The position numbers were made by a program, and so were the translations under genes. Source: Acidimicrobiales bacterium (GTDB lineage Bacteria; Actinomycetota; Acidimicrobiia; Acidimicrobiales; Aldehydirespiratoraceae). Taken from it: a stretch of DNA of 42,205 bases. The number at the start of each line of letters is the position of its first letter. Position 1 is the first letter of the stretch. The DNA lies in the NCBI GenBank assembly GCA_029263215.1, contig JAJCXY010000069.1, forward strand, positions 1-42,205. The letters are read 5' to 3'. Shown piece by piece: positions 23,601-30,613 of the stretch. The notes below the pieces were generated by a model that was given only the letters and a program-made list of their open reading frames with translations, was not told the DNA's origin and did no database searches.

Positions 23601-24860
23601 ATGGCCCCGCCATCAGATCGCGTGGCCCAACTCGATCTCGACTTCGTCCGCGCCCAGTTCCCGGCATTCGCCCATCCTGAGACCGGCCGGTGGGCCCATC
23701 TCGAAAACGCCGGTGGGAGCTACGTGCCGCGCCAGGTCGTCGACCTGCTCGCCGACCTCTTTGCCCACCACAAGTGCCAGCCGGGCTGGGGTTTCGGCCC
23801 GTCGACGGTGGCGTCTGAGGCAATGGAGCGTTCCCGCCAGGTGATGGCGGAGTTGTTCAACGCCGAGCCCGAGGAGATCCACTTCGGGCCGTCCACCAGC
23901 CAGAACACCTACGTGCTCGCCCAGGCGTTGAGGCCCACCTGGAGTGAGGGCGACGAGATAATCGTCACCGACCAGGACCATGAGGCCAACTCCGGTGTCT
24001 GGCGCCGCCTGGCCGCCACCGGAATCGTGGTGAAGGAGTGGCAGGTCGACCCTGTCACCGGACTCCTCGACCCGGACCGGGCGCGGGAGCTGATCACCGA
24101 GCGGACCCGCCTCCTCGCGATGACCCATGCGTCCAACGTTGCCGCCACGATCAACCCCATCGCCGAGCTCGCGGCCGACATACACGCGGTGGGCGGGCGA
24201 ATCGTGGTGGATGGAGTGTCCTACGCTCCGCACGCGATGGTCGACGTGAAGGCACTCGACTGCGATGTCTACCTCTACAGCGCCTACAAGACCTTCGGTC
24301 CCCACATCGGGATGATGTTCACCAAGGCCGACCTGCTCGATGAGATCGCCCACCAGGGGCACTATTTCAACGAGGCGATTCCCGCCACCCGGCTCACGCC
24401 TGCCGGCCCGGATCATGCTGTGATCGGAGCGGCGGCCGGGATCGCCGACTACTACGACGCCCTCCATACCCATCATTTCCCGGGCCTTGATCGCACGGGG
24501 TTCGATGCCGCATCAGCGATGTTCGACCTCTTCGCCCACCATGAGGAAGGCCTGATGGCACCCCTCCTCGATCTCCTCACCGAACGCAACGGGGTGAGCG
24601 TGGTCGGCCGTACCGAAGCCCGCCACGAGATGAGAGCGCCCACCATCGGCTTCTGGTCGTCGAAGGCCTCTTCGAGCGACATCTACCGGGCCCTGATTGA
24701 GGCCGAGGTGTCTTGTGGTCACGGTCACTTCTACGCCCATCGCCTCGTGTCGGCACTGGGCCTCGACCCCGACGACGGCGTGGTTCGGCTCTCGATGGTC
24801 CACTACAACACCCACGACGAAGTGGAGCGGGCGATCGACGTGCTCGACCGCGTGCTCTAG
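23601..24860 (+). CDS. Class V aminotransferase, cysteine desulfurase-like
   Basis: A 419-residue PLP enzyme of fold type I. The cofactor Lys is K230 in YLYSAYKTFGPH, the Asp that pairs with the PLP nitrogen is D204 (IVVDGVSYAPH), and H127 lies in TDQDHEANS. The C-terminal domain has SCGHGHFYAHRL where SufS has RxGHHC. It looks like the cysteine desulfurase-like subfamily that lacks proven sulfur transfer (the VC1184 group); the reaction is not known. The ATG at 23601 is 7 bp after the lipoprotein gene. Its TAG stop overlaps the convergent selenoprotein gene's TAG in the palindrome CTAG. Confidence 0.85.
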   Translation: MAPPSDRVAQLDLDFVRAQFPAFAHPETGRWAHLENAGGSYVPRQVVDLLADLFAHHKCQPGWGFGPSTVASEAMERSRQVMAELFNAEPEEIHFGPSTSQNTYVLAQALRPTWSEGDEIIVTDQDHEANSGVWRRLAATGIVVKEWQVDPVTGLLDPDRARELITERTRLLAMTHASNVAATINPIAELAADIHAVGGRIVVDGVSYAPHAMVDVKALDCDVYLYSAYKTFGPHIGMMFTKADLLDEIAHQGHYFNEAIPATRLTPAGPDHAVIGAAAGIADYYDALHTHHFPGLDRTGFDAASAMFDLFAHHEEGLMAPLLDLLTERNGVSVVGRTEARHEMRAPTIGFWSSKASSSDIYRALIEAEVSCGHGHFYAHRLVSALGLDPDDGVVRLSMVHYNTHDEVERAIDVLDRVL

Positions 24861-25471
24861 GGCCGTTCGCCGAACTCCGGCCTTTCGGTGCGAGTGCGCT
24901 TGAGTTCCCAGAACCCGCTCACGTTCATCATGGTCACCAACGCGTCCCACATGGCCAGCGAATCCTCGGTGGGCGGGACCCTGGTGATGACGGGACCGAA
25001 ATAGCCCTGGCGAACACCGTCGCGATCGTCGAAGGCGATTATGGGCGTGCCCACATCGTCGCCGCAGAGCGCGAGGCCCTTGTCCATGCGTGTACGTATC
25101 TCGGCGTCGAACGAATCGTCGTCGAAAGCATCTGCATGCGAGACGTCGTAGTCGATTGCCTTCAGCGCCTCCGCCGCGGTGAAGTCGCGATCCTGGTCGT
25201 GATGGATTCGTCGGCCGTACTCCTGGTACAACGCGAAGACGGCGTCGTCGCCCTCTGCCTTGCGCACCGACTCCATCACCCGCATGAGATTGTGGGTGAA
25301 CACCGATGCGGTGTAGTAGTCCGAATCCTCGTCTGGTTCGTTCTTGAACAAGAGACTGATCGGCTGCCACGTGACGTTGAGGTCACGAGCGGGCTTGATT
25401 TCGTCGACGACCCAACGGGCCGTCACCCAACACCACGGTCAAATCGGATCAACCCAAAACTCGATGTCCAT
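24857..25471 (-). CDS. Mycothiol nitroreductase-like selenoprotein (UPWC), candidate
   Basis: A 204-codon gene with an in-frame TGA as codon 11 (25441-25439). Reading through gives WVDPI-U-PWCW where the Rv2466c family (mycothiol-dependent, DsbA-like thioredoxin fold) has FDPLCPWCW, so the TGA replaces the nucleophilic Cys; the resolving C14 is kept. Downstream family marks are GDDVGTP (cis-Pro), YFGPVITRVP and FWELKRTRTE at the C-terminus, and the total length matches the roughly 207 of Rv2466c. ATG 25471 has GGAGG at 25487-25483. The next in-frame start after the TGA (GTG 25426) would lose the whole active site. A SECIS-like hairpin follows the TGA. A nonsense mutation or sequencing error is the main alternative. 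Confidence 0.82.
25406..25424 (-). promoter_or_regulatory. Candidate bacterial SECIS hairpin
   Basis: On the mRNA strand GACGGCCC-GTT-GGGTCGTC forms an 8-bp stem (one G-U) with a GUU loop; an outer U-G pair may extend it. The stem starts 14 nt after the TGA and the loop 22 nt after it. As I recall, bacterial SECIS elements have a loop 16-37 nt from the UGA with a G among the first two loop bases, which fits. The bulged U seen in the E. coli fdhF element is not evident. Confidence 0.7.
25439..25441 (-). other. Probable selenocysteine codon (TGA)
   Basis: In-frame TGA, codon 11 of the Rv2466c-like gene, at the first position of the CxxC redox motif. Both flanks are conserved family sequence, and the reading frame stays open for the 193 codons that follow. 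Confidence 0.8.
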
Positions 25472-25482
25472 CGTGGTCGTTT

Positions 25483-25487
25483 CCTCC
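25483..25487 (-). promoter_or_regulatory. Ribosome binding site deciding the upstream start
   Basis: GGAGG on the minus strand, 11 nt before ATG 25471. It is the best ribosome binding site near the gene and supports translation starting upstream of the in-frame TGA. Confidence 0.65.
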
Positions 25488-25523: not shown

Positions 25524-26690
25524 CTATTTCGACGGTATTCCAACCCTCGCCGCTCCCTGTGCCCATTCAGGCCAGCGCTCACGGCTCTTCTGAGCCAGCT
25601 TGTGCATAAGTGCTATCGCACCGGGGTCGTCGTCGCCCGGCCTGGTCTCGATCACCCCGTCCTTCACCATGGCTTCGATCACGGCACGGCCGAGGTCGGT
25701 GCGCACGACGGTGAGCGTCCAGTCGGTGAGGTTGCCGATGCCTCCGGTGGAGATGTCGGCGTGTTCCGCCGCGAAATCGGGGCAGTGATTGCAACCCTCG
25801 CGGGTCCAGGCGTGGCATTCCTTGAGGTTGATCTCGTGGTAGCCGCCGTCCTTGGTCCAGATCTGGAAGACGCCCTTGATGTTCATTTTGGCGATGTTGT
25901 CGCGTTTGAGGCCGTACTTGACCTCGAAGAGTTCGTCGAAGAGAGAGTCGTCGAACGACTTGGAGCAGAGCAGGCCGATGTTGAGCTTGAACGGCTTCGA
26001 CACCTTGCCGACCTTGCGATGCCACATCACCGGTGCCACCGATGTCTGGCAGCTCATTCCCACCAGGGCGAGTCGTTCGAGGCCCTTCTCGTTCGCCTCG
26101 GTGAAGGCCATGGTGTTGGCCGAGTAGGTGTAGCGGCTGCCCGCCCCCCTCAGTACCTCGTCGCGGTTTGTGGCCACCATCGGGAAGGCCTTCCAGCCCG
26201 GCTCGCCACTGGGGAGGGTCTCCACGCCGCTGGTGAGGGCACCGTCGACGATGTCGTTCTCGAGGCACCAGATGAGGATTGCCGACACCAGACCACCGTC
26301 CTGGCCGGTCTCGTAGACGAAGTCATCGCTGGCGCGGGTGAGCAGGATGTCGGAGAGGACACCGGCCATCTCGTCGGGCTCACGTTCACGCCCGTGAAGG
26401 TGCATGTCGGCTTCGGGTTCCCACATTCGGAACCGGGGACACGAACGAGTGCACGACGTGCAGCCCTTCTGGCCGTGGATGCAATCGTCGGCACCCAGTT
26501 CTTCTTCGATATGGAAGGGCCGGTAGGCCCCCGGCTCGTGTTCGTAGCCGATCACGTCGTGGGGGCACGAGATCACACACCCGGCACAGCCAGTGCACAG
26601 ACCAGAGGTGATCACCTCGTCGTGGAGCTCTTTCCACTGATAGCTCCAACGTTCCTTCTTGGCGGGAACGGAGGTTTCTGTGACAGCCAT
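25524..26690 (-). CDS. FrhB/FdhB-like Fe-S flavoprotein (F420 hydrogenase beta family)
   Basis: A 388-residue protein. A ferredoxin-like cluster site C32-x2-C35-x2-C38-x3-C42 (LCTGCAGCVISCP) and a second C70-x6-C77-x2-C80-x3-C84 lie in the first 90 residues. The rest resembles the FrhB N- and C-terminal domains, with GQDGGLVSAIL, GMSCQTSVAPV and NIGLLCSKSFDDSLF. FrhB-type subunits hold FAD and move electrons between Fe-S clusters and coenzyme F420 or ferredoxin; other members are reductases with different substrates. No hydrogenase or formate dehydrogenase partner is nearby. ATG 26690 lies 38 bp behind the upstream gene, and the selenoprotein gene follows after 52 bp on the same strand. Confidence 0.85.
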   Translation of the reverse strand: MAVTETSVPAKKERWSYQWKELHDEVITSGLCTGCAGCVISCPHDVIGYEHEPGAYRPFHIEEELGADDCIHGQKGCTSCTRSCPRFRMWEPEADMHLHGREREPDEMAGVLSDILLTRASDDFVYETGQDGGLVSAILIWCLENDIVDGALTSGVETLPSGEPGWKAFPMVATNRDEVLRGAGSRYTYSANTMAFTEANEKGLERLALVGMSCQTSVAPVMWHRKVGKVSKPFKLNIGLLCSKSFDDSLFDELFEVKYGLKRDNIAKMNIKGVFQIWTKDGGYHEINLKECHAWTREGCNHCPDFAAEHADISTGGIGNLTDWTLTVVRTDLGRAVIEAMVKDGVIETRPGDDDPGAIALMHKLAQKSRERWPEWAQGAARVGIPSK

Positions 26691-27663: not shown

Positions 27664-29034
27664 CTACTCGCCGTAGACCGGTGACCCCGGGAAGAAGCTC
27701 GCCCAGGCAAACCAGAACTCGTTGCGATGTTGCAGGGTCTCGAGCTGTTCACCGGAGAGGGGTCCCTCGACTGCCTTGCCGAGCAGGGTCCAGACTGTGC
27801 CGGTCTCGGCGTCGATGAATCGGCCGGCTTCGGTGCTCGAAAAGGTGAGTGTCTGACCGTCGACTCGGCGGTCGAAGGCGACACCGGAGCCGATCGCCTC
27901 ACCATCGGCGATGGTCGAGGCGTCGAGTGCATCGGCGGTTTCGTCGCCCCAGAGAACCGCCACCGGCACGCCCTCGACGTCGTCGTTCACCGCAGGGGTC
28001 TCGCTGAGCAAGCTGAACGGGTAGGCCTTCTGGGTGCCGTCGACGGTAATGCCCACCACCCGTGACAGAGCGGGGAAGCGTGGGTCGGGCTCGCCGTCGA
28101 AGAGAAACGGCGTCTGGCTGGAGCTGTAGTCGGCGTAGGAGTTGCCGCCATAGGAGATCCCGAACCCCGTGTCCTGGGCGAGTGACAGGGCTTCGGGGAA
28201 GCTCTCGAGCACGCTGCTGTAGGACACGATGGAAGTGGGTATGAGTTCGAGCTGGGTGCCGGCGAACTCTCCCACGACGCCTTCGCCGGTGATCTGCTGC
28301 CAGAGGGAGGTCGAGGCGTTGTCCCACATCACGAGGTCACTGTTGCGCAGCAGGCCTGACACGCCGAAACGAAGGACCTTTCCATCGACACGCGCATCGA
28401 ACGTCACCGCCGTGTTGCACAACGGGCAGTAGGTGATGACTACAGGGAGGTCGCCGAAGCGATCGTTGACCACCTCGTGCCGGGTGAGGATCGACAGGGG
28501 GTAGAAGCGCACTTCACCGTTGAACCGCACCAGAGCGCCCGGCTCGCGTTCGTCGAGCCAGGTAGCCGAAGCGATCGGCTCGAACTTGGGGAAGTCGATC
28601 GGCCTGATGCTGTCGCGGGGATCCACTCGCGGGATTCCGAGGAGAAACTCATTGAGATCAACGGTTCGCCGAGACCAATCCGTGGTCCAGGGCGCCACCG
28701 CCTGGCCGACATTGCCGGTGAACCCGAGGGTGGGGTCCTCGGTCACGATGGTCACGCCGACGTCGGAGCTCGTTGTCCCGCCGGAGAGGTCGAATGGGCG
28801 ATCGGTATCGGTGGGGGAGAAGAGGCCATCGGTGAAGTCGGGTGCTTCCGCGGCCTGCTCACCGTCGTTGTTCGAGGCGGCCGGGTTGGTCGTCGTATCG
28901 TCGGACTTCTCGATCTCGTCATCGGGTGCGGCCGCCGCATCGGTCGCTACATCACTGATGCCGGCCGCGCCACCGCAAGCTGCTGTGGTGATGGCGACTC
29001 CCACGGCAAGAGCCATCAAACGCTTCCTGTTCAC
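27664..29034 (-). CDS. DUF3179 domain lipoprotein, second copy
   Basis: A 456-residue protein from GTG 29034, with GGAGG 7 nt upstream. The N-terminus is basic, then hydrophobic, ending in a lipobox-like TAAC (C20); an acidic, Thr/Ala-rich linker of about 80 residues follows. The DUF3179 core has VVITYCPLCNTAVTFDAR, LRNSDLVMWDN and PFLFDGEPDPRF, parallel to the protein at 9027-10307. It is encoded 16 bp behind ccdA, so it probably works with the CcdA/TlpA thiol pathway; the conserved CPLC pair would be a natural substrate. That link is inference. Confidence 0.87.
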   Translation of the reverse strand: MNRKRLMALAVGVAITTAACGGAAGISDVATDAAAAPDDEIEKSDDTTTNPAASNNDGEQAAEAPDFTDGLFSPTDTDRPFDLSGGTTSSDVGVTIVTEDPTLGFTGNVGQAVAPWTTDWSRRTVDLNEFLLGIPRVDPRDSIRPIDFPKFEPIASATWLDEREPGALVRFNGEVRFYPLSILTRHEVVNDRFGDLPVVITYCPLCNTAVTFDARVDGKVLRFGVSGLLRNSDLVMWDNASTSLWQQITGEGVVGEFAGTQLELIPTSIVSYSSVLESFPEALSLAQDTGFGISYGGNSYADYSSSQTPFLFDGEPDPRFPALSRVVGITVDGTQKAYPFSLLSETPAVNDDVEGVPVAVLWGDETADALDASTIADGEAIGSGVAFDRRVDGQTLTFSSTEAGRFIDAETGTVWTLLGKAVEGPLSGEQLETLQHRNEFWFAWASFFPGSPVYGE

Positions 29035-29050
29035 TGGAGATCCTCCATGA

Positions 29051-29971
29051 TCAGACCGGAGAAGGCTCACGGTCGGGTGCCTCGTCACCGGCGCTGCCGG
29101 CATCGGGCGACGGTACGGATGGTTCGGCCGGAGGCTCGAACCGCTTCAGAACAGACGACATGATCGCGATGAGGATGACACCGCCGAGCACCAGTCCGAT
29201 CGTTCCGGAGTTGGAACCGATCGCGTTGGTGAGCGAGGCAGACCAGCCGTCCACCACTCCCGCCGCTGCTCCCTGATCACCCGCATCGGATGTGAGGTCG
29301 TCGGCCCAGAACCAGGTGATATAGAGACCGGCGATGATCAAGAACCCGGCGGAGACCCGCTGGACGTAGGGGAGCACCCTCCTCAATCGGCTGACGACGC
29401 CCTGCTTGGCGAAGGCGACCGCCAGGGTCACCGCCACCAGCAGCACCGACATGCCGAGGCCGTAGGCGATGTAGGTGAGGAACCCGGAGATGAAGTTGGC
29501 GCTGGCGATGGAACCCACCACCACCGAGAGGAACACCGGCAGAGTGCACGAAAGCGATGCGAGCGCGTACGACACGCCGAACGTGAAGACCGATTTCGTG
29601 TCGCGGCTGCCGGTGCCGCCCTGCACCTTCAAGAAGCCGATCGAGAGTTGGTAGCCCCGGAACATGGCGATGCCGAGCAACACCATGATCACGCCGATGC
29701 CCAGAGCCACGTAGGGGATCCAGTCGATGATCGAGCGGACACCGGCATTGATCAGCAACCCGGTGGTGCCGAACACCACCAGGAAGCCGAGCGATACAAT
29801 GCCGCCGACCTTGAGCGCCTGGGCGACGCTCGCGCCGCTTTCCGCGTCCTCGTCGGAGCCCTCGAGGCCCATGAAGTACGACAGGTAGGCAGGCAGCATG
29901 GCGAACCCGCACGGGTTGACGGTCGCGACGAGACCGGCCGCGAAGGCGAGGCCGATCGGTGCGTCGATCAC
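29051..29971 (-). CDS. ccdA: CcdA/DsbD-like thiol reductant transporter
   Basis: A 306-residue membrane protein with about seven hydrophobic segments. The two redox cysteines are C21 in NPCGFAMLP and C142 in SLSCTLPVF, the hallmark pair that relays electrons from cytoplasmic thioredoxin across the membrane. The Pro residues beside each Cys are kept. The C-terminal 35 residues form a hydrophilic, Pro/Asp-rich tail. GTG 29971 overlaps the TlpA-like stop (GTGA), so the two are coupled; the thioredoxin is its likely partner. It could serve the Ccm system at the start of the window as well as the nearby DUF3179 protein. Confidence 0.92.
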   Translation of the reverse strand: MIDAPIGLAFAAGLVATVNPCGFAMLPAYLSYFMGLEGSDEDAESGASVAQALKVGGIVSLGFLVVFGTTGLLINAGVRSIIDWIPYVALGIGVIMVLLGIAMFRGYQLSIGFLKVQGGTGSRDTKSVFTFGVSYALASLSCTLPVFLSVVVGSIASANFISGFLTYIAYGLGMSVLLVAVTLAVAFAKQGVVSRLRRVLPYVQRVSAGFLIIAGLYITWFWADDLTSDAGDQGAAAGVVDGWSASLTNAIGSNSGTIGLVLGGVILIAIMSSVLKRFEPPAEPSVPSPDAGSAGDEAPDREPSPV

Positions 29972-30513
29972 GACGCCGCCTTCAGTTCTTCGATGCGGCT
30001 CAGCAGCGCATCGTCGGTGAGTTGCCCGCCGAAGATCTCATGGATCTGGCCGTCGGCGGTGATGAACACGGTGCTCGGCATGGCGAACAGGCCGAGCGAG
30101 CGGAAGAGCTCACCCTGGGGGTCGTCGGCGAGGGTGTAGGTGAGGCCGACGTCGTTGGCTAGGCCGACGGCCGCGCCTCGGCTGTCGGCATTGGCCATTC
30201 CTATGAACGTGACGTCGTCGCTGACGGCCTCGTGCACAGCCTGGAAGTCGGGTAGCTCACCGACACATGCCGGGCACCACGAAGCCCAGAAGTTGAGAAC
30301 CACGGGCTTGCCTCGGAAGGCGGCGAAGCTGGAGATGCCACCGTCGAAGAGTTCGAAGTCGGCGTCGAACGCCTCTTCATCGGAGGTGGCGGGTTCGGCC
30401 AGATCGCCGCCCCCGCCGAGGGAGACGACGGCGATCACGATCGCAACGAGCACGGCGAAGGACCCTCCGATGAGTCGCTGCCTCTGTCGTTTCGACACCG
30501 TCAAGTTGGCCAT
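29968..30513 (-). CDS. TlpA/ResA-like membrane-anchored thioredoxin
   Basis: A 181-residue protein with one N-terminal membrane helix (about residues 14-33) and an extracytoplasmic thioredoxin domain. The active site is WASWC80-P-A-C83 and the cis-Pro lies in LFAMPSTVFI. It probably reduces disulfides outside the membrane with electrons from the CcdA-like protein encoded directly behind it. ATG 30513 has GAAGGGAA upstream. An in-frame start further up (30600) would add a Cys- and Arg-rich stretch of no family likeness and is rejected. Confidence 0.9.
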   Translation of the reverse strand: MANLTVSKRQRQRLIGGSFAVLVAIVIAVVSLGGGGDLAEPATSDEEAFDADFELFDGGISSFAAFRGKPVVLNFWASWCPACVGELPDFQAVHEAVSDDVTFIGMANADSRGAAVGLANDVGLTYTLADDPQGELFRSLGLFAMPSTVFITADGQIHEIFGGQLTDDALLSRIEELKAAS

Positions 30514-30570
30514 CGCCGTTCCCTTCGAGCTGTTTCGCTGACAGGGAAACGACCTCAGCGGCCGGCAACG

Positions 30571-30587
30571 TTCGCGATGGTCGCGAA
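30571..30587. promoter_or_regulatory. 17-bp palindrome upstream of the TlpA-like gene
   Basis: TTCGCGA-TGG-TCGCGAA is a perfect inverted repeat with 7-bp arms in the 100-bp gap before the TlpA/CcdA/DUF3179 unit, 58 bp from its start codon. A weaker repeat, GTTTC/GAAAC, lies at 30532-30550. Either could be a regulator site, or the first a terminator-like stem for the upstream gene. Confidence 0.45.
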
Positions 30588-30613
30588 GATCACAGTTCAC
30601 GCCGCTGACTGCG

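Follow-up and report, generated by a model that had tools for sequence, protein, structure and literature searches.

The question raised by this locus is whether an in-frame TGA, eleven codons into an Rv2466c-like gene, ends translation or specifies selenocysteine (Sec). The gene lies on the minus strand of a stretch of DNA of 42,205 nucleotides, here called the window, and the features needed to follow the argument are:

24857–25471, minus strand: Rv2466c-like gene, predicted to encode a selenoprotein of 204 residues (ATG to TAG), with Sec as residue 11 (UPWC); family PF22234
25439–25441, minus strand: in-frame TGA, the predicted Sec codon (codon 11), at the column of Rv2466c Cys19
25483–25487, minus strand: GGAGG, a ribosome-binding site judged from its sequence, 11 nt 5' of the ATG at 25471
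25430–25432, minus strand: TGT codon of residue 14, the second (resolving) Cys

Translated from the ATG at 25471, the minus strand reads MDIEFWVDPI, then TGA, then PWCWVTARW. That TGA (25441–25439) is the only internal stop, and from there the frame is open to the TAG at 24857, its 3' end encoding FWELKRTRTE. The first-pass annotation had described this start with its GGAGG, the TGA at codon 11, the motif WVDPI-U-PWCW and an otherwise intact frame running to the FWELKRTRTE ending, and all of these were confirmed. It had also placed the stop on the nucleophilic cysteine, which holds: in the alignment to Rv2466c chains the TGA coincides with the first Cys of CPWC, Cys19 (4zil_A, E 3e-35). Some homologs have no start codon at the Met column and must begin farther upstream.

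The TGA is widely shared. It stands at column 11 in 40 of 41 loci from named assemblies, the remaining one (L058) ending before the column; by title these are MAGs, assigned to Acidimicrobiia or to actinobacteria with a less exact name. A further set, L064–L093, which overlaps the first in genomes and includes the window's own copy (L064), has it in 30 of 30 loci. Some relative of the gene was found in 318 of 397 genomes drawn from the order Acidimicrobiales, a draw that shares members with the 41 loci, and at least 84 of the 397 hold a copy at ≥50% identity with one TGA, counts that ignore relatedness; among the matches listed, the 84 span 33 genus codes. All 57 genomes fetched from these 84, the window's own included, have the TGA exactly at column 11, and since the same codon recurs in 57 separate assemblies a sequencing error is unlikely. 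Two of the genomes with a TGA copy, G006 and G321, consist of a single contig.

If the TGA were nevertheless a real stop, the gene would be a pseudogene, or would yield a shortened protein that restarts at GTG 25426 and lacks the nucleophile. An ORF of 189 aa from this GTG does exist, and is all that an ORF listing returns when TGA is taken as a stop. However, the codons before the TGA are conserved as protein (mostly FWxDP) across the 33 genus codes, again among the matches listed, in agreement with the conserved flanks reported at first pass; no fetched TGA copy has a second stop within its aligned part; and W6, D8, P9, P12, C14, N44 and Pro143 are identical in all 86 full-length TGA rows, a count that takes in near-duplicates. 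Decay in related genomes had been named as a sign to look for, and the fetched copies proved intact in frame, active site and the SECIS-like hairpin described below; four rows with an internal TAG or TAA (G488, G019, G594 and G568) lay outside the fetched set. Termination at codon 11 is thus a very improbable reading.

The first-pass annotation had also asked whether related genomes switch between TGA and TGC/TGT at this column, and on the alignment they do. In 14 genomes of the order, among the matches listed, the best match (≥45%) is a full copy without a stop and has TGC or TGT there; G308 and G170, whose matches end before the column, were excluded. The Cys forms are about 45–62% identical to the window protein, and the source genome itself also carries a Cys paralog (CPFA, L021). 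Among 396 genomes drawn from the phylum, 102 gave a match, and outside the order no TGA was found at this column among the matches listed. Some distant rows with one TGA were rejected as Sec copies: four in the order (G091, G210, G385, G358) have TGT or TGC at the column and seven from the phylum, at 31–39% identity, all have TGC, the TGA of these rows sitting at or past the C-terminal end. A tree was built from 116 distinct rows (70 Sec, 46 Cys) with the Sec column masked and with near-identical rows and truncated matches dropped. On it the Sec/Cys label changes 7 times, against a shuffle mean of 36.4, and a weakly supported group of 80 contains 69 of the 70 Sec rows together with 11 scattered Cys rows. 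The number of Sec/Cys exchanges is uncertain, because the starred branches force just two of the seven changes and the tree has no direction.

A Sec codon needs a decoding system, and the genome search proposed at first pass recovered all four components, each above its cut-off, in the source assembly (4.05 Mb, 131 contigs, 94.8% complete): tRNA-Sec (64 bits, read by ARAGORN as SeC(tca)), SelB (273 bits), SelA (379 bits) and SelD (360 bits), with SelA, SelB and tRNA-Sec together on one contig. The SelD gene (L018, C18:50460-51386) is itself a selenoprotein gene, having a single in-frame TGA in the context GAG-U-GCK, which fits the UxxK motif given for the SelD family in the part of a 2026 review available to us (PMC13188914), and it serves as a positive control for Sec decoding in this genome. 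Across the order, SelA was found in 237 of 397 genomes at E≤1e-40 (233 above the cut-off) and, at that threshold, in 81 of the 84 listed TGA genomes where 50 would be expected, counts that again ignore relatedness; the three TGA genomes without a SelA match are each only 73–76% complete. The 14 genomes with a Cys copy divide into ten with SelA and four without.

The same genome could in principle read UGA otherwise, through a changed code or by inserting Cys (or Trp), for example with a SelC-like tRNA charged with Cys, as in Mukai et al. 2017 (cited in the available part of PMC9437257). Cys insertion finds some encouragement in two MshC-like genes, related to CysRS, that the genome has besides cysS, one of which passes the CysS cut-off (353 vs 340 bits); yet for both of them the MshC model gives a better score than the CysS model. 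ARAGORN, run on the best 8 of 12 tRNA-Sec matches, found the anticodon TCA in one only, a tRNA-SeC, the next seven being Ser, Leu, Gly, Arg and Cys tRNAs, and the SelA present makes Sec on that tRNA. A changed code is opposed by the use of TGA as an ordinary terminator, since 5 of 10 further window genes that were checked end in it, as does the MshC-like gene that precedes cysS. Recoding of either kind is as improbable as termination.

A candidate SECIS element lies just beyond the codon:

25405–25425, minus strand: SECIS-like hairpin, 9-bp stem, GUU loop at 25414–25416

It occupies 14–34 nt 3' of the UGA, with 22 nt from UGA to loop, and has a predicted energy of −13.7 kcal/mol on its own; folded alone, its 21 nt give a stem of 8 bp. 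The bacterial SECIS limits stated in the review, as far as it was available (PMC13188914), are a loop of 3–9 nt with G in the first two places, a stem of 4–16 bp, 16–37 nt from UGA to loop and an energy of at most −7.5, and the window hairpin, whose 3-nt loop starts GU, agrees with every one of these that was tested. Across the regions 3' of the UGA in TGA copies (71 distinct sequences), codons 16–22 are almost frozen at their third positions, whereas these positions vary in 13 Cys homologs (≥48% identity). Normalised synonymous entropy in the TGA copies is 0.27 for hairpin codons (5 codons) vs 0.69 for 58 others (p 2.6e-4); for the Cys homologs, from which rows below 44% identity and near-identical and truncated rows had been dropped, it is 0.70 (2 codons) vs 0.73 (48).

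Pairing is conserved as well. The stem joins columns 17–25 to 29–37 around the GUU loop, and 97.4% of the 585 cells from 65 distinct TGA sequences are paired, 13 of the cells being changed on both sides; neither figure, nor the covariation score, is reached in any of 500 shuffles, and the observed three pairs with double changes are reached in 5 of 500, with the caveat that related sequences can beat such shuffles without structure. When the partners were slid by 1–3 columns as a control, 14–64% paired. The pair 21–33 joins two synonymous sites, the third base of codon 17 and that of codon 21; it is GC in 54 sequences, AU in 4, UA in 3, and CG, GU, UG and other in one each. By comparison, 17 Cys homologs have 58.8% of hairpin cells paired against a shuffle mean of 59.2. 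The folding energy of a 48-nt segment is ordinary by comparison with shuffled sequence: z is −1.28, and 22 of 200 shuffles do equally well. When the source genome was searched with a covariance model of the hairpin, this gene came out at E 5.5e-18 and the next match at 0.004; the four next best of the 16 matches resemble chance and were rejected as further SECIS elements. One Cys copy, G134 (L102/L133), still has every one of the nine pairs, its single difference from the majority hairpin being the first stem base; the other Cys copies compared retain 2–7 pairs. The G134 hairpin is probably a relic of a Sec-to-Cys reversion.

Taken with the machinery and the hairpin, codon 11 is almost certainly decoded as Sec, and we put the probability that 24857–25471 is a genuine selenoprotein gene, as predicted from sequence, at about 0.9.

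The family to which the protein belongs is well defined. It matches PF22234 ('Mycothiol-dependent nitroreductase Rv2466c') with 136.1 bits against a cut-off of 27, and the same model was found in 25 of 25 members scanned (E≤0.001). The NCBIfam models gave no family for the window protein, none of them names this Sec family, and one of the 25 members weakly matched a thioredoxin model. The 25 aligned Sec members have in common, among others, W6, D8, P9, P12, W13, C14, N44 and P143, which we take to be the cis-Pro of the thioredoxin-like fold, together with F158-G159-P160, K191 and R194. All of these are invariant in the 86 full-length Sec rows except W13 (83 W, 3 F); at position 192, 76 rows have R and 10 have K. 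The second Cys is present in 86 of 86 Sec rows, and in the 49 Cys rows the position is Cys in 34, Ala in 13 and Thr in 2. A monothiol form, with this Cys replaced, is accordingly seen in 15 of the 49 Cys rows. L168–L173 have Ala at this position and L174 has Thr, so that many Rv2466c-like proteins are of this form.

An AlphaFold2 model, made from the window and locus sequences with Cys substituted for Sec, has a pLDDT of 92.9. Among PDB chains, the top ten matches all come from Rv2466c or the M. leprae structure 4wkw (TM 0.78–0.85, E 1e-13 or better); the next structure is a D. radiodurans oxidoreductase, named FrnE in 5xwh (TM ~0.5, E ~4e-6), and DR2335, a DsbA-like protein, matches with TM 0.76 and E 8e-6. 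The protein thus resembles the Rv2466c / Mrx2 / DsbA-Mrx1 cluster (PDB 4zil, 4nxi, 5xur) in matching over its whole length with the same predicted fold, and it keeps the aligned W, D, P, P, W, second Cys, N51, TP and FGP positions, which presumably have roles in Rv2466c. It differs in having Sec for the nucleophilic Cys19, a like-for-like replacement rather than a loss, in carrying the SECIS-like hairpin within its coding sequence, and in sequence, the identity being ~32%.

How far the protein is new depends on what has been catalogued. In the available portions of the literature, DsbA-like UxxC selenoproteins are represented by nine sequences of COG2761 from the Sargasso Sea in 2005 (PMC1088965) and by DsbA 1–3 selenoproteins from GOS in 2008 (PMC2398784), both sets being marine, by a Sec-FrnE in Mamiellophyceae (PMC6627142), and by the DsbA-like 'form 1' (UxxC) and 'form 2' (DxxUP) of the 2026 review, whose example of form 2 is labelled a crotonase family protein (PMC13188914); a 2016 table has a DsbA-like row reading '41, 45', taken here as organisms and sequences. 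The present gene could then be a real selenoprotein already contained in those DsbA-like sets (Sargasso Sea/GOS or form 2), with only the link to Rv2466c new. Its DPIUP fits DxxUP, compared by motif alone, and its UPWC fits UxxC; every one of the 25 members matches PF01323 at E≤0.001 (2.8e-10 for the strongest); and such actinobacteria also occur in marine habitats, as would suit the 2005 and 2008 sets. On the other hand, COG2761 is, we take it, FrnE, and FrnE structures fit the model far worse than Rv2466c does; the present gene does not encode a crotonase family protein, as the form 2 example is labelled; the window protein scores 23.8 bits with PF01323, under the cut-off of 25.6; and NCBIfam is silent on these proteins. 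We regard full prior coverage as a possibility of some substance without favouring it, and some of the Sec clade may already sit unnamed in published DsbA-like sets.

With those DsbA-like and FrnE selenoproteins the window protein shares the UxxC motif, a DsbA-like thioredoxin fold and Sec in place of the first Cys. It differs from them, by descriptions rather than by sequences, in belonging to the PF22234 branch and to Acidimicrobiia, and FrnE structures match its model less well (TM ~0.5). The word 'mycothiol' is absent from the main text of the review in the part available (PMC13188914), and titles and abstract openings yielded no paper linking selenium to Rv2466c or to the Sec clade. The first-pass remark that there is no firm description in the mycothiol branch can be upheld only in part, since generic DsbA-like UxxC selenoproteins are in print. 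What would be new is the Sec form in the Rv2466c branch; DsbA-like UxxC selenoproteins as such have been catalogued since 2005.

In the Cys enzymes, according to the available parts of PMC11841060 and PMC8280269, Cys19 is the nucleophile, Cys22 resolves, and mycothiol with its reductase restores the enzyme. The source genome has an Mtr-like gene (574 bits, next 231), an MshA-like gene (394 bits, next 96) and two MshC-like genes (425 and 402–403 bits, cysS itself 293; the first is the one that passes the CysS cut-off), all clear of the background and all below the NCBI cut-offs, and the organism likely has mycothiol. The MshC-like genes are at C40:8071-9246 and C29:17766-18860, one of them directly before cysS; an in-frame TGA inside a third MshC match was dismissed, because it is simply where the MshC-like gene before cysS ends.

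A mechanism can be proposed on this basis. The SelA/SelB/SelD/tRNA-Sec system would decode UGA codon 11 as selenocysteine, steered by the hairpin in the coding sequence just 3' of it, to give a DsbA-fold oxidoreductase of the Rv2466c (Mrx2) branch with the active site Sec-Pro-Trp-Cys. Sec11 would act as nucleophile and Cys14 as resolving residue: the selenolate may attack oxidised substrates (mixed disulfides with mycothiol, protein disulfides, perhaps nitro compounds), a selenenyl-sulfide would form with Cys14 or mycothiol, and the enzyme would be reset by mycothiol and the mycothione-reductase-like enzyme. Since the use of mycothiol is inferred from family, fold and the MshA-, MshC- and Mtr-like genes, we consider a mycothiol-linked reductase activity probable, with some reserve; a nitroreductase activity is suggested by family membership.

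Two genes adjoin the Sec gene:

25524–26639, minus strand: FrhB/FpoF-like Fe-S protein, resembling F420 hydrogenase/dehydrogenase beta subunits, 52 nt upstream of the Sec gene; start putative
23601–24860, plus strand: class V aminotransferase, cysteine desulfurase-like (TIGR01976, 312 bits, cut-off 352), convergent with the Sec gene

The enzyme could work without mycothiol, reduced by thioredoxin or, with F420H2, by the FrhB/FpoF-like neighbour. C. glutamicum NCgl2478 is also regenerable by Trx/TrxR, according to the available part of PMC8280269, and all 15 other genomes fetched from the window's family have the FrhB/FpoF-like gene upstream (85–90% identical), at gaps of 15–153 nt in 14 of them and 652 nt in one. 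It is, however, beside none of the Sec copies in 14 fetched genomes of other families (one with only 403 upstream bases), and the MshA-, MshC- and Mtr-like genes are present. We think it unlikely that mycothiol is dispensed with, and the FrhB/FpoF-like protein as a partner of the Sec enzyme is speculation.

The aminotransferase gene overlaps the end of the Sec gene by 4 bases, and a relative of it occurs in the flanks of 7 of 41 loci. Also on the minus strand, 27664–29103 encodes a DUF3179 protein (PF11376, 297 bits) that carries CPLC, and DUF3179 is listed as a selenoprotein family (UxxC/T) in the available part of PMC13188914. A gene for a DsbD/CcdA-like membrane protein (29051–30600, minus strand), with a weak Pfam match below the cut-off, adjoins a TlpA-like thioredoxin gene.

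The carriers of the Sec gene are actinobacteria known mostly from metagenomes, and a gene caller for which TGA always terminates would report no more than the portion 3' of the active site. Because the active site is lost in this way, the selenoprotein is easily missed, even though it is verified in 57 genomes and indicated in at least 84 of the 397 in the order. As one enzyme occurs naturally in both Sec and Cys versions, the contribution of Sec to a thiol reductase could be tested directly, and the hairpin kept in one Cys homolog suggests that Sec has reverted to Cys. It could even be imagined, as a long shot, that a Sec-Mrx2 works via selenenyl-mycothiol and, in the window's family, is reduced from F420H2 by an operon-like partner of FrhB/FpoF type, which would join selenium, mycothiol and deazaflavin chemistry in one Acidimicrobiia pathway. 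If the mycothiol link is true, selenium would gain a place in the mycothiol-linked thiol system of actinobacteria.
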